Shown: positions 974-6,942 of the stretch, one piece after another
How positions within the stretch are numbered: position 1 is the stretch's first letter
Layout: each line of letters opens with the position of its first letter
Source: Verrucomicrobiota bacterium
GTDB lineage: Bacteria > Verrucomicrobiota > Verrucomicrobiia > Chthoniobacterales > UBA10450
DNA: 15,038 bases
Reading direction: 5' to 3'
Assembly (NCBI GenBank): GCA_003219945.1
Contig: QHQV01000277.1
Coordinates: 1 to 15,038, forward strand
Program-made: the position numbers and the translations under genes
Notes under the pieces: model-generated
What the model saw: only the letters and a program-made list of their open reading frames with translations
What the model was told of the DNA's origin: nothing
Database searches by the model: none

Positions 974-1027
974 GAATCTGGTTAAGTATATTTTGGCATG
1001 GAATCTGGTTAAGTATATTTTGGCATG
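974..1027 (+). repeat. Perfect 27-bp tandem duplication over the start of the small basic protein gene
   Basis: Bases 974-1000 and 1001-1027 are identical 27-mers (start GAATCTGGTTAAG, end TTTTGGCATG) with no spacer. The second copy ends on the ATG of the gene at 1025. The first copy also ends in ATG, which opens a four-codon frame (MESG, stop) that closes just ahead of the real start. The duplication also joins a TTGGCA from copy 1 (994-999) to TATATT/TATTTT from copy 2 (1014-1021). Confidence 0.95.
994..1021 (+). promoter_or_regulatory. Possible promoter for the TIR-like cassette
   Basis: TTGGCA at 994-999 resembles a -35 box. TATTTT at 1016-1021 (16-bp spacer) or TATATT at 1014-1019 (14-bp spacer) resembles a -10 box. 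The -10 ends only 3-5 bases before the ATG at 1025 and no Shine-Dalgarno is present, so a leaderless transcript is plausible. Pairing the two boxes depends on the tandem duplication. This is motif reading only. Confidence 0.35.
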
Positions 1028-1207
1028 CCCGCAGCTAAATATCGTCCAATTCGCGAAGTTCAAGGGAACGGCACAGTGTCGAAAGCCAGGATCAGGCAGG
1101 CCGTAAAGAAATTGGCCGAGTTAAAGCGAGCTCATCCTGCTCGGTACAAGGAAAAAATTCGGGCCAGCGCGAGCACACCTGTCCAGCTAGTTGTTCGACA
1201 TAGTTAA
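1025..1207 (+). CDS. Small basic protein, first gene of the TIR-like cassette
   Basis: A 60-aa protein rich in Lys and Arg (for example KARIRQAVKKLAELKR), with one likely amphipathic helix around residues 20-45 and no signal peptide or membrane segment. I do not recognise a named family. It ends five bases before the ATG of the TIR-like gene and runs in the same direction, so the two are almost certainly co-transcribed and may be translationally linked. The ATG is the second of two created by the 27-bp duplication, and there is no clear Shine-Dalgarno. By position and charge it could be a nucleic-acid-binding partner, an antitoxin or a regulator of the downstream protein; that is inference only. 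An alternative is that this is a degraded frame, but the consistent spacing and composition argue for a real gene. Confidence 0.6.
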   Translation: MPAAKYRPIREVQGNGTVSKARIRQAVKKLAELKRAHPARYKEKIRASASTPVQLVVRHS

Positions 1208-1212
1208 CCGAA

Positions 1213-1830
1213 ATGCCGGCGTCCCCCAGCGCTAGCGTATTCATCAACTGCCCGTTCGACTCGCGGTATCAGCCGCTTTTTGAAGCGATCGTATTCTGCG
1301 TTTCCGCCTGTGGGTTTGTGCCACGATGCACGCTGGAGCTTAGAGATGCGGGCGAGGTTCGGATCGAGAACATCTATCGATTGATCGACGAATGTCACCA
1401 GGGTATTCACGATATCTCCCGCACTGAGGTGCAAGGGCAGCCATATGGGTTGCCGCGATTCAATATGCCGCTCGAATTAGGCATTTTTCTTGGCGCAAAA
1501 CGCTTTGGAAAACATTCCGCGCAGAAACGCGTCTTGATTTTGGATCGCGAGCCTTATCGCTACAGACGTTTCATCTCGGACATTGGCGGCCAGGATATTC
1601 AAGCTCACCGGCGAAGCCCCGCGAGAGCGATTCGCCATGTGCGTGACTGGCTTCAATCCGCTCCGGGCAAAACCGCTATTCCGGGCGGCAGGAAAATCTG
1701 GGAAGATTACCGCCTTTTCCGGCGAGAACTTCCCGCGATCGCCGAGGAGGCCCAGCTCGATCCTAGGCAATTGACATTTATCGATTACCTCCTGCTCGCT
1801 TCGAATTGGCTGCAGGAACATCGCAGATAA
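1213..1830 (+). CDS. TIR/nucleoside-deoxyribosyltransferase-like protein
   Basis: A 205-aa soluble protein. Visible blocks are SVFINCPFD at 8-16 (first beta strand and loop), PLFEAIVF at 21-28, GFVPRCTLE at 34-42, IYRLIDECHQGIHDISRTE at 54-72, NMPLELGIFLGAKRFG at 84-99, and KRVLILDRE then FISDIGGQDIQAH at 105-132. A Glu inside a LELGxFLGA segment (E88), followed by a K/R-rich strand ending LILD, resembles the catalytic Glu region of TIR-like NAD-cleaving domains and of nucleoside 2-deoxyribosyltransferases. I infer a Rossmann-like nucleotide or NAD hydrolase. I know close relatives of this pattern only as hypothetical proteins. The C-terminal ~55 residues (DWLQ onward) look helical. It follows the small basic gene by five bases, which fits a two-gene defence or toxin unit. 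Catalysis is unproven and the fold assignment rests on motif resemblance. Confidence 0.75.
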   Translation: MPASPSASVFINCPFDSRYQPLFEAIVFCVSACGFVPRCTLELRDAGEVRIENIYRLIDECHQGIHDISRTEVQGQPYGLPRFNMPLELGIFLGAKRFGKHSAQKRVLILDREPYRYRRFISDIGGQDIQAHRRSPARAIRHVRDWLQSAPGKTAIPGGRKIWEDYRLFRRELPAIAEEAQLDPRQLTFIDYLLLASNWLQEHRR

Positions 1831-4042: not shown

Positions 4043-4675
4043 ATGTCTCCGCTCCTGATCAAGATCAGCAAAGATTTCGCTACCCTTTGGACGACGATCG
4101 ATCCAATCGGCAACGTGGCGTTGTTTGCCGGCTTGACCGCTGCGCTCACCCGGGCAGAGCGGCATATGACGGCCCTGCGCGCTGTGATTTACGCCACTAT
4201 CATCCTCGTTGCCGCCGCGACCGCCGGCCAGGTCATTCTCGACGCAATCGGCATTCACATGCACTCGCTCAAAGTGGCCGGCGGCATCATTCTGTTCCTG
4301 TTCGGCGTGCAGATGCTTTTCGGGAAAATGGATGCGAAGACAGACAGATCGCCAGAGGAAGGACGTGACCTCGCGGTGTTCCCGCTGGCGGTGCCTTCCA
4401 TCGCCGGACCGGGCGCGATAATGGCGGTGATCGTCTTAACTGATAACGATGTCTATACGGTGCCGGAGCGGCTCGAAACCGGCGTTGTCCTGGTAGTGGT
4501 GCTCTTCCTGACCTATCTCCTGCTGCTTTTTTCGGATGCGATTCTGCGCGTGATCGGTCGACAGGGCGCGTCTGTTCTCGTCCGTGTAATGGGACTCATC
4601 CTCTGCTCGCTGGCAGTGGAAATCGTGCTCACTGCGCTCGGCGTCGTCGGCTGGACGACGGGTGCGCCGCACTAG
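4043..4675 (+). CDS. marC: MarC family integral membrane protein
   Basis: A 210-aa protein with six hydrophobic segments and the MarC/UPF0056 pattern: FATLWTTIDPIGNVALFAGLT near the N-terminus, KVAGGIILFLFGVQMLFG in the middle, and FPLAVPSIAGPGAIMAVI, where the PxxxGPG-type motif is characteristic. These proteins sit in the inner membrane. The old link to multiple antibiotic resistance is not well supported and the substrate is unknown. I start at the ATG at 4043; an in-frame TTG at 4034 would add three residues. A weak -10-like TATAAG lies at 4014-4019. A short fragment of a second marC copy lies at 821-877. The gene symbol refers to family membership only. Confidence 0.9.
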   Translation: MSPLLIKISKDFATLWTTIDPIGNVALFAGLTAALTRAERHMTALRAVIYATIILVAAATAGQVILDAIGIHMHSLKVAGGIILFLFGVQMLFGKMDAKTDRSPEEGRDLAVFPLAVPSIAGPGAIMAVIVLTDNDVYTVPERLETGVVLVVVLFLTYLLLLFSDAILRVIGRQGASVLVRVMGLILCSLAVEIVLTALGVVGWTTGAPH

Positions 4676-5385: not shown

Positions 5386-6792
5386 TTAATGTCTCTTGTA
5401 TCCGAAGAAACCGCGGTGGCGGATGATGTCGGCAACTTGCGGTGGCACCATCTCGTCCCAGCTTTCGTCGCCGCTGGCGATACGCTTGAGCACGTCGCGT
5501 GAAAATATCGACAGGTATTCGGGATTGTAGTTATCTAGCTGCACAAAGCTGCCGCGACGACAAAGATAATCGTAGAGCAGTTGCAGATCAGACTTCAGGT
5601 TCACACTCCCAATCGTCTGTAATTCATCGCTGGGACTTCGTTGCAGGGGATAAACATAAACTTTCAAATCGTTCTTAAAGAGGCGCCCAAAATTCTCAAG
5701 AATGCCGCCAGGCAGTTCGGTGTAATACTTTTGGTCGAACAACTCATACACACTCGGCACGCCCATAACGATCCCGATGCGTTCGCGCGTCCGCCACGCG
5801 AGGTAAGCGGCTAGCCGATAATACTCGAAGTAATCGGAGATGAGCACCGTCATGCCACAGGCGCCGAGGACCTCGGCGCGCCCGAGAAAATCACGACGGT
5901 CAACATCTTTGCCGCCCGCCAGCAGATTGCGCATGGTCAGTTCCATCAGACCGAGAATCGGTTTGTTCTCCACGGCGGGTTCCTTCTTAAACTTCGTCAG
6001 CGCGCACTGAAACATGTCGAGGTTGACATAGGTGACCGGACGAAAACTGCCGCGCTCGACCAATACGGCCTTGTTATGCAACACGTCGGACGGCTGCAAC
6101 ACCTCGCGGTTTGGGCCGAACATCGCGGCACCGCTCAGCCCGATCTGGACAAGTTTGAGCGCCATAATTCGGTTGTCGACGTTGCGAAATTCGATTCCGC
6201 TGAACTCCAGCATGTCGATCTCGAGACGACGCGTGGTGAGATTGTCGAGCAGCGATTCGATCAGCTCCTCTGGCACGTGACTCAGGAAAAATGCTCCGTA
6301 GCAAAGGTTCACGCCCACAATACCGAGCGCTTCTTGTTGCCCTGATGCTTCCTCGTCCAGCATGCGTATGTGCATTACCACCTGGCTGGGCTCATCGTTG
6401 GCGCGGCTCTGAAATTTGATCCCCATCCAGCCATGGCACTCGCTCGTGCCGCGATAACTCCGCGCCACAACGGTGTCGGCGAACGCGAAAAACGAAGTGT
6501 TGTCGCCACGCTCCGCAGCCAGTCGCTGGATGTCGAGATTGAATTCGTAATCGAGCATCGCCTGGAGCCGGTTGCGCGAAACGTAGCGATCACCGTGCCC
6601 GTAGATGGCGTCGCTCACCTTCATGTCGTAAGCCGAGATGCTCTTGGCGACCGTCCCTGCGGCGCCGCCGACCCGAAAAAACCAGCGCACCACTTCCTGG
6701 CCCGCGCCGATTTCCGCAAACGTCCCATACCAGCGCGGATCGATATTGATCCTGAGTGCCTTGGAATGGGTATCGATCGTTTCCTCTTTCAC
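5386..6792 (-). CDS. Conserved protein of unknown function (468 aa)
   Basis: The conserved body begins ALRINIDPRWYGTFAEIGAG, followed by QEVVRWFFRVGGAAGT and KSISAYDMKVSDAIYG, then long blocks such as VERGSFRPVTYVNLDMFQ, LMELTMRNLLAGG, ELPGGILENFGRLFKNDL and a C-terminal EMVPPQVADII. I recognise this as a widely conserved large soluble family. I recall relatives labelled as nicotinate-nucleotide adenylyltransferase, but I see no HxGH nucleotidyltransferase motif here and do not adopt that label. The frame is open from a GTG at 6939. I prefer the GTG at 6792, 13 residues before ALRIN, because the extra 49 residues look unlike the family and would leave only three bases to the divergent methyltransferase gene. 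An AGGAG ahead of 6939 is a point against this choice. A fragment of a paralogue lies at 1847-2030. Confidence 0.8.
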   Translation of the reverse strand: MKEETIDTHSKALRINIDPRWYGTFAEIGAGQEVVRWFFRVGGAAGTVAKSISAYDMKVSDAIYGHGDRYVSRNRLQAMLDYEFNLDIQRLAAERGDNTSFFAFADTVVARSYRGTSECHGWMGIKFQSRANDEPSQVVMHIRMLDEEASGQQEALGIVGVNLCYGAFFLSHVPEELIESLLDNLTTRRLEIDMLEFSGIEFRNVDNRIMALKLVQIGLSGAAMFGPNREVLQPSDVLHNKAVLVERGSFRPVTYVNLDMFQCALTKFKKEPAVENKPILGLMELTMRNLLAGGKDVDRRDFLGRAEVLGACGMTVLISDYFEYYRLAAYLAWRTRERIGIVMGVPSVYELFDQKYYTELPGGILENFGRLFKNDLKVYVYPLQRSPSDELQTIGSVNLKSDLQLLYDYLCRRGSFVQLDNYNPEYLSIFSRDVLKRIASGDESWDEMVPPQVADIIRHRGFFGYKRH

Positions 6793-6942
6793 GGGTGAGG
6801 ACAGTAGATTAATAAAGTGCTTGGCGCGCGAAAGGCGAGAGTTTCCATTCCAGACGATCCTGCGCTCGAAAATCACTCGATTTATGTGTCTTGTCACAGC
6901 TAGAATAATTGCGACCGCACAAGACAACCGATAACTCACATT

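Follow-up and report, generated by a model that had tools for sequence, protein, structure and literature searches.

A TIR-type enzyme gene and its motif-bearing partner gene in a Verrucomicrobiota bacterium: a possible effector docked to exchangeable sensors

The closest described counterparts of the gene pair reported here are TIR-type immune proteins. The CAP12/Pycsar-effector TIR family (PF10137), to which the TIR of SfSTING belongs, has an R-x-N-x3-E catalytic segment that is present in our enzyme too; unlike SfSTING, however, the enzyme chain contains no STING or other ligand-binding domain, and its FINCPFD and SDIxGxDI region is specific to its own family rather than shared with PF10137. 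The Swarozyc proteins, DUF4062 TIR-like NADases, are recently described, patchily spread and characterised by a conserved Glu, going by the part of their description used here (PMC13174449). On that partial account the enzyme family is similarly TIR-like and patchy with a conserved Glu, whereas the auxiliary domains of Swarozyc often lie in the same protein and the candidate sensing part of our enzyme is encoded by a separate gene. Effector-associated domains (EADs) form homotypic domain pairs, according to the portion of the source on which we draw (Kaur et al., 2020; PMC7159879). Within the limits of that portion, the arrangement described below resembles EADs in that a small element without catalytic function connects effectors with a variety of sensors or signalling domains, frequently those of a neighbouring gene, and differs from them in that the ~20-residue motif is seen on the partner side only. 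A link to Thoeris and CBASS is that the motif occurs in fusions, with CD-NTases in 28 proteins and with a ThsB-like TIR in locus L221 and, by eye, in L216; by contrast with those systems, the enzyme has no receptor domain for cyclic nucleotides or ADPR isomers, and at most of the loci examined the partner contains neither a cyclase nor ThsB.

The pair and its surroundings

The window, by which we mean the whole 15,038-nucleotide stretch of DNA analysed, is contig C148 of a 2.24-Mb genome that is 71.5% complete. The ORF list, homologues and selection identify a small gene at 1025..1207 (+ strand) encoding a basic partner of 60 aa; homologues, conservation and the predicted fold identify a gene at 1213..1830 (+ strand) encoding a 205-aa TIR/NDT-fold enzyme. 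As an earlier, sequence-only reading of this DNA had stated, the two genes run in the same direction and are five bases apart (1208-1212). The enzyme ORF is free of in-frame stops, and its nearest named relatives are Spartobacteria/Verrucomicrobia records (80-82%). The small-gene ORF has 12 full-length homologues (63-97% identity), and the small gene occupies the same position in the enzyme's three closest named relatives (L015 to L017). By the Nei-Gojobori method, dN/dS for the small gene is 0.13 and 0.09 in the only two of six pairs that are unsaturated (L015 with L017, L016 with L017), dS being saturated in all three comparisons of the window with these relatives (pS 0.77-0.83, pN 0.23); for the enzyme gene it is 0.04-0.09 in four unsaturated pairs. 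The two-gene pair is genuine and conserved.

A perfect 27-bp tandem duplication (974..1027, + strand, with copies at 974-1000 and 1001-1027) spans the start codon of the small gene. Sigma-70-like hexamer pairs, recognised by consensus match only, overlap this duplication at 964-992 and 993-1021, and positions 900-1900 hold four promoter-like sites against a shuffled mean of 1.1; the region is thus a possible promoter of the pair. Repeats and gene fragments do surround the pair, as had been claimed. Besides the duplication, a 40-bp piece of marC lies upstream at 825-864 (93% identical to 4071-4110), and a 126-bp piece of a 517-aa ORF (5386-6939), itself without a Pfam match, is repeated right after the pair at 1857-1982 (77% identical). 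Diverged short direct repeats are also found upstream, at 436-486, 762-812, 660-685, 707-730, 871-896 and 917-940. As to the suggestion that this is accessory defence DNA, no defence gene was found in the window (Pfam for eight ORFs, PADLOC for the pair), nor did the Pfam search of the eight ORFs find a CD-NTase beside an effector gene, the arrangement expected of CBASS.

The enzyme and its predicted active site

The enzyme family is very large, with 7944 of 8000 scored candidates matching the 205-aa protein, and has no Pfam, NCBIfam or PADLOC name; thousands of homologues are therefore currently without a family name. Neither protein of the pair matches a model in PADLOC-DB 2.0.0 (E up to 10), and neither matches a named system in Pfam or PADLOC, which agrees with the earlier view that the pair stands outside the standard named systems. 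The predicted structure (pLDDT 91.3) has the TIR/nucleoside-deoxyribosyltransferase alpha/beta fold that had been anticipated from motif resemblance. This fold leaves the substrate unsettled, because DNPH1, which is among the tied top rows of the fold matches, hydrolyses deoxynucleotides.

The FINCPFD segment pointed out in the sequence-only reading follows strand 1 (residues 10-16; 1240..1260, + strand). In 106 sequences, N12 and P14 are invariant, and F10, I11, C13, F15 and D16 are each conserved in at least 90%. The Glu pointed out with it, E88, lies inside RFNMPLELGIFLGA (residues 82-95), within a predicted helix (84-98), and completes the predicted catalytic segment R82-F-N84-M-P-L-E88 (1456..1476, + strand), of which R, N and E are invariant in the alignment A3. 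R82-x-N84-x3-E88 is spaced like R78/N80/E84 in the NADase active site of the SfSTING TIR, and in profile comparison the segment aligns with the RxNxxxE segment of CAP12 TIRs. E88 is conserved in 106/106 rows of A3, a figure that is partly ascertained by row selection. Genome-contig loci were found by the patterns [PF]R[FM]NMP[LF]E or FINCPFDxxY, 70 of the 72 A3 rows from this pattern scan carry [PF]R[FM]NMP[LF]E, and A3 rows were further picked by NMP[LF]E, so invariance in A3 follows in part from the choice of rows; the 11 loci found by profile are free of this bias.

Of five profiles compared, only that of the CAP12/Pycsar-effector TIR family aligns with the enzyme family, which makes NAD cleavage the more likely activity, over deoxyribosyl transfer. 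At the level of single sequences, the window enzyme has no match to PF10137 (CAP12-PCTIR_TIR) at E 1; two of ten relatives match (L002, E 0.016; L009, E 0.024), both below the curated cut-off, the best of the ten scoring 15.7 bits against the 24.7 required. We also considered membership of the NDT family (PF05014) and of the DUF4062/Swarozyc family and rejected both, the window enzyme having no Pfam match to either and hhalign giving a probability of 0.4 in each case.

The partner: a short motif and varied modules

Reading the ORFs upstream of the enzyme gene in relatives brought out a GxxSxxxIxxAVxxV-like pattern, represented in the window partner by the docking-type motif GNGTVSKARIRQAVKKLAEL (residues 14-33; 1064..1123, + strand). 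With an HMM built from 12 seeds, one from the window and 11 from other loci, we searched every ORF of 30 aa or more and counted adjacency to the enzyme gene. Among 8070 ORFs from 92 loci, 253 of them adjacent to the enzyme gene, 50 match at E 0.1 or better; 48 of these adjoin the enzyme gene on the same strand, with 1.6 expected. The two others also lie in enzyme loci, one as a tandem second partner (L021) and one downstream of an enzyme ORF that an in-frame stop interrupts (L036). Leaving out the seed loci, 37 of 39 matches in 81 loci are adjacent (hypergeometric 3e-55). At E 1 the motif is adjacent in 53/92 loci, and in many of the loci without such a match a small ORF next to the enzyme gene has, by eye, DUF2188 or a diverged form of the motif. 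The small gene is thus conserved together with the enzyme gene, as claimed, in the sense of this 48/50 adjacency; neither an unrelated fold, nor a lack of co-occurrence, nor a variable E88, the three outcomes named in advance as refuting, was found.

Eight of the 11 profile-found loci have a partner (the motif in L009, DUF2188 in L011 and L012, and L151-L155 by eye, with DUF2188 in L152-L155 also assigned by eye). In the partner's stead, L010 has an 85-aa ORF downstream and L013 an unlike 65-aa ORF; the scan of L150 itself shows none, and in a relative, L085, one is present by eye (E 3.3). L014 (E 1e-3, residues 7-59 only) is excluded from all counts, and L001 and L008 both denote the window.

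The linkage of a small basic partner was correctly foreseen, but the partner is not one fixed protein; rather, it combines a short motif and a module that can be exchanged. A constant small partner was rejected, since 80 partners align with a mean column identity of 5%, and recurrence is limited to the helix motif and a few modules. A scan of the 80 partners found 13 with DUF2188, one with GIY-YIG (E 3e-4) and one CD-NTase, as well as one histone-like HC2 and one IPI_T4 match, both below cut-off; other partner bodies include Lys/Ala-rich tails. The window partner amounts roughly to the motif with about 27 further residues. Its model, of low confidence overall (pLDDT 65.7), predicts helices at 20-36 and 38-48 (75-85 there) with disordered ends, and the first predicted helix contains most of the motif. 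In Poribacteria the partner gene is mostly downstream of the enzyme gene, and elsewhere it is upstream in most loci. Open-licence PMC literature, where absence is no proof of novelty, contains neither FINCPFD, VFINCPFD, NMPLELGIFLGA or NMPFELG nor the combination of TIR-like proteins with DUF2188, and by title and abstract start it holds nothing on DUF2188 that concerns this subject.

In some lineages the motif is fused to a recognisable immune protein. A 424-aa CD-NTase in L029 (PADLOC cyclase, 1e-127) bears it at residues 12-29, and a search with residues 1-46 of that protein gave, of 29 candidates, 28 proteins (query included) that are all PF21654 and all motif-first. Across 84 Poribacteria genomes, six of six motif-bearing CD-NTases lie beside an enzyme gene or remnant, against none of eight motif-less ones (1/3003), and the distance from the enzyme gene to each of the six, which follow it, is about 40 bp. 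Only a C-terminal enzyme remnant precedes the motif-CD-NTase in genomes G622 and G645, with a stop in the G645 remnant; the G651 cyclase frame holds one stop, and in G670 a motif-less CD-NTase is 2.8 kb from an enzyme match, not adjacent to it. Several Poribacteria enzyme matches are fragments or contain stops. In L221, next to an enzyme gene, the motif is joined to a ThsB-type TIR and a winged helix (E 1e-22); L216 holds a second motif-ThsB gene (by eye), with no enzyme match nearby. Every motif-cyclase and motif-ThsB locus of known context is from Poribacteria.

Also in Poribacteria, a region of ~550 aa stands behind the motif in L219 (1503-3275), L220, L218, L215, L023, L024 and L036. This region has no Pfam or PADLOC match in L219 and L220, the two that were scanned, and the other five are alike by eye; L218, a motif fusion of ~600 aa, has no enzyme match within 700 bp. 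The region is a candidate new sensor. Of 55 other partner-type motif matches in Poribacteria, 42 lie within 700 bp of a same-strand enzyme match and 13 do not (G671, G673, G640, G658 with two, G669, G634, G646, G663, G657, G288, G662 and G650); these 13 genes may be orphans, or may have next to them enzyme copies that have decayed past the point of matching. Upstream of the motif-CD-NTase in G645 is a 391-aa ORF (L222 858-2033, reverse complement); it looks nuclease-type by eye, and it and the enzyme remnant overlap in different frames.

Spread, genomic context and competing explanations

The enzyme occurs in 7/288 genomes of the window's phylum (its own genome included, and one at the 1e-3 limit), in 5/298 other genomes of L063's phylum and in 44/84 Poribacteria genomes, Poribacteria contributing 23 of the 80 genome loci. 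The family spans at least 14 phylum-level groups. Its tree has two main parts, an 82-row clade with motif-type partners and a smaller DUF2188-type group, and phylum labels change 26 times on it, between the minimum of 13 and the shuffled mean of 42.5, indicating lineage signal plus mixing. On three phage-type contigs (L003, L005, L004) the pair has a major head gene on one side and connector or tail genes on the other; in L006 it is near an opposite-strand baseplate gene, and in L002 near an integrase, with a type VI retron RT and an HTH gene also upstream. A general link to retrons was rejected, with one RT_VI match among the 131 neighbours scanned. None of 50,697 phage genome records has a match, and 17 of 72,556 plasmid records do; in the four of these 17 that were examined, a partner is directly upstream (three motif, one DUF2188-like; by eye). 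The sequence-only reading asked whether homologues lie near defence genes, and such genes proved not to be generally close. The PADLOC scan of neighbours (131 of 318 selected ones, 1e-15), which has no baseline for comparison, gave scattered matches to 64 families, the 25 listed each matching one or two members. No neighbour family of at least 100 aa recurs in more than 8/84 loci, and the one that does recur is from Poribacteria only (small mixed clusters are unnamed).

A TIR-type hydrolase that lacks a sensor, beside a partner with a constant helix motif and a variable, sometimes immune-sensor part, leads us to favour on balance, from architecture, the view that the pair consists of a TIR-type effector that cleaves NAD and a docking helix that binds it, with the module attached to the helix sensing infection. 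Indeed, at the loci examined the enzyme is nearly always beside a partner-type protein. We propose that the pair would act as an immune module in two parts, of abortive-infection type. One part, the 205-aa protein, would be a stand-alone TIR-type glycohydrolase of NAD+ (or a related nucleotide), with R82, N84 and E88 as its active site; without a sensor of its own, it would be bound by the short helix-forming motif of the partner, the rest of which would be a sensing or localising part that is swapped between lineages and in some of them is a whole cGAS-like cyclase or ThsB-like TIR. Infection would alter the partner, the docked enzyme would be released or clustered, NAD+ would drop and growth would stop. 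We infer the NAD+ substrate, physical docking, the direction of control (hold-off or switch-on), a phage trigger and phage defence. The 13 of 55 Poribacteria motif matches without an enzyme match nearby, L216 and L218 among them, slightly lower our confidence in a docked effector. The enzyme remnants before two of the six motif-cyclases and the stop in G651 also count against it, as do the restriction to Poribacteria of the motif-cyclase and motif-ThsB loci of known context, the finding that defence genes are not generally close and a fold that leaves the substrate unsettled. So does the position of the pair in four Planctomycetaceae-type loci (L065, L075, L081, L094), where it has the same chromosomal place before trpS (identified by eye) and common neighbours to either side, as would suit a gene inherited vertically.

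More tentatively, and with some doubt, we suggest that one NAD-cleaving TIR-type family is linked through a docking helix of ~20 residues to interchangeable sensors, crossing the borders between CBASS, Thoeris and toxin-antitoxin systems; the candidate sensors include cGAS-like cyclases, ThsB-type TIRs, DUF2188 and DNA-binding-like tails. If this is true, the motif would be a sequence handle for finding new phage sensors, any protein fused to it, or bearing it beside the enzyme, would be a candidate detector (the ~550-aa region included), and a TIR effector would recruit its sensor via a short linear motif rather than carry one.

The main rival, which we consider rather unlikely, is a classical type II toxin-antitoxin pair, in which the small basic partner would be only an antitoxin, its helix would block the enzyme, and post-segregational killing or mobile-element stability, not phage sensing, would keep the pair. 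Two adjacent co-oriented genes with a small partner are what such a pair looks like, and in most loci outside Poribacteria the small gene comes first, near or overlapping the enzyme start. Partners are basic and of low complexity, that of the window being modelled as two helices with disordered ends, the pair is carried on prophage-type contigs and plasmids, and enzyme-less partner genes could be orphan antitoxins. NAD-degrading toxins are known in such pairs, NatT being one according to the part of its description used here (PMC11535050). The simple pairs, including that of the window, are explained equally well by an antitoxin and by a docked effector, and the two may be mechanistically identical if the dock restrains the enzyme. 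However, an antitoxin has no need of joining the same motif to a CD-NTase or a ThsB TIR, gene order flips to partner-downstream in Poribacteria, and the partner bodies are mutually dissimilar.

Still less probable, in our estimation, is that the enzyme produces from NAD a signal that acts on another effector, the role of ThsB towards ThsA in Thoeris. Thoeris TIRs have the same fold as the enzyme, and in L007 a ThsA gene directly follows the pair, within a Thoeris cluster (two ThsA, two ThsB and one TIR-TM). Speaking against it is the limited recurrence of neighbour families described above (no more than 8/84 loci, and there Poribacteria only). A last alternative is that the enzyme is of DNPH1/NDT type, serves the nucleotide pool or housekeeping, and has a small subunit that regulates it. 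We regard this as highly improbable given the sparse spread noted above in the phyla of the window and of L063, the mixing of phyla on the enzyme tree, carriage on plasmids and phage-type contigs, and the absence of an NDT profile match. One plasmid locus provides a further observation on carriage: in L250 (1-4769), from a Sphingomonas plasmid, genes annotated as a Mu-transposase C-terminal part, TniB, TniQ, HU and a serine protease are followed by the pair, which suggests that the pair there is transposon cargo.
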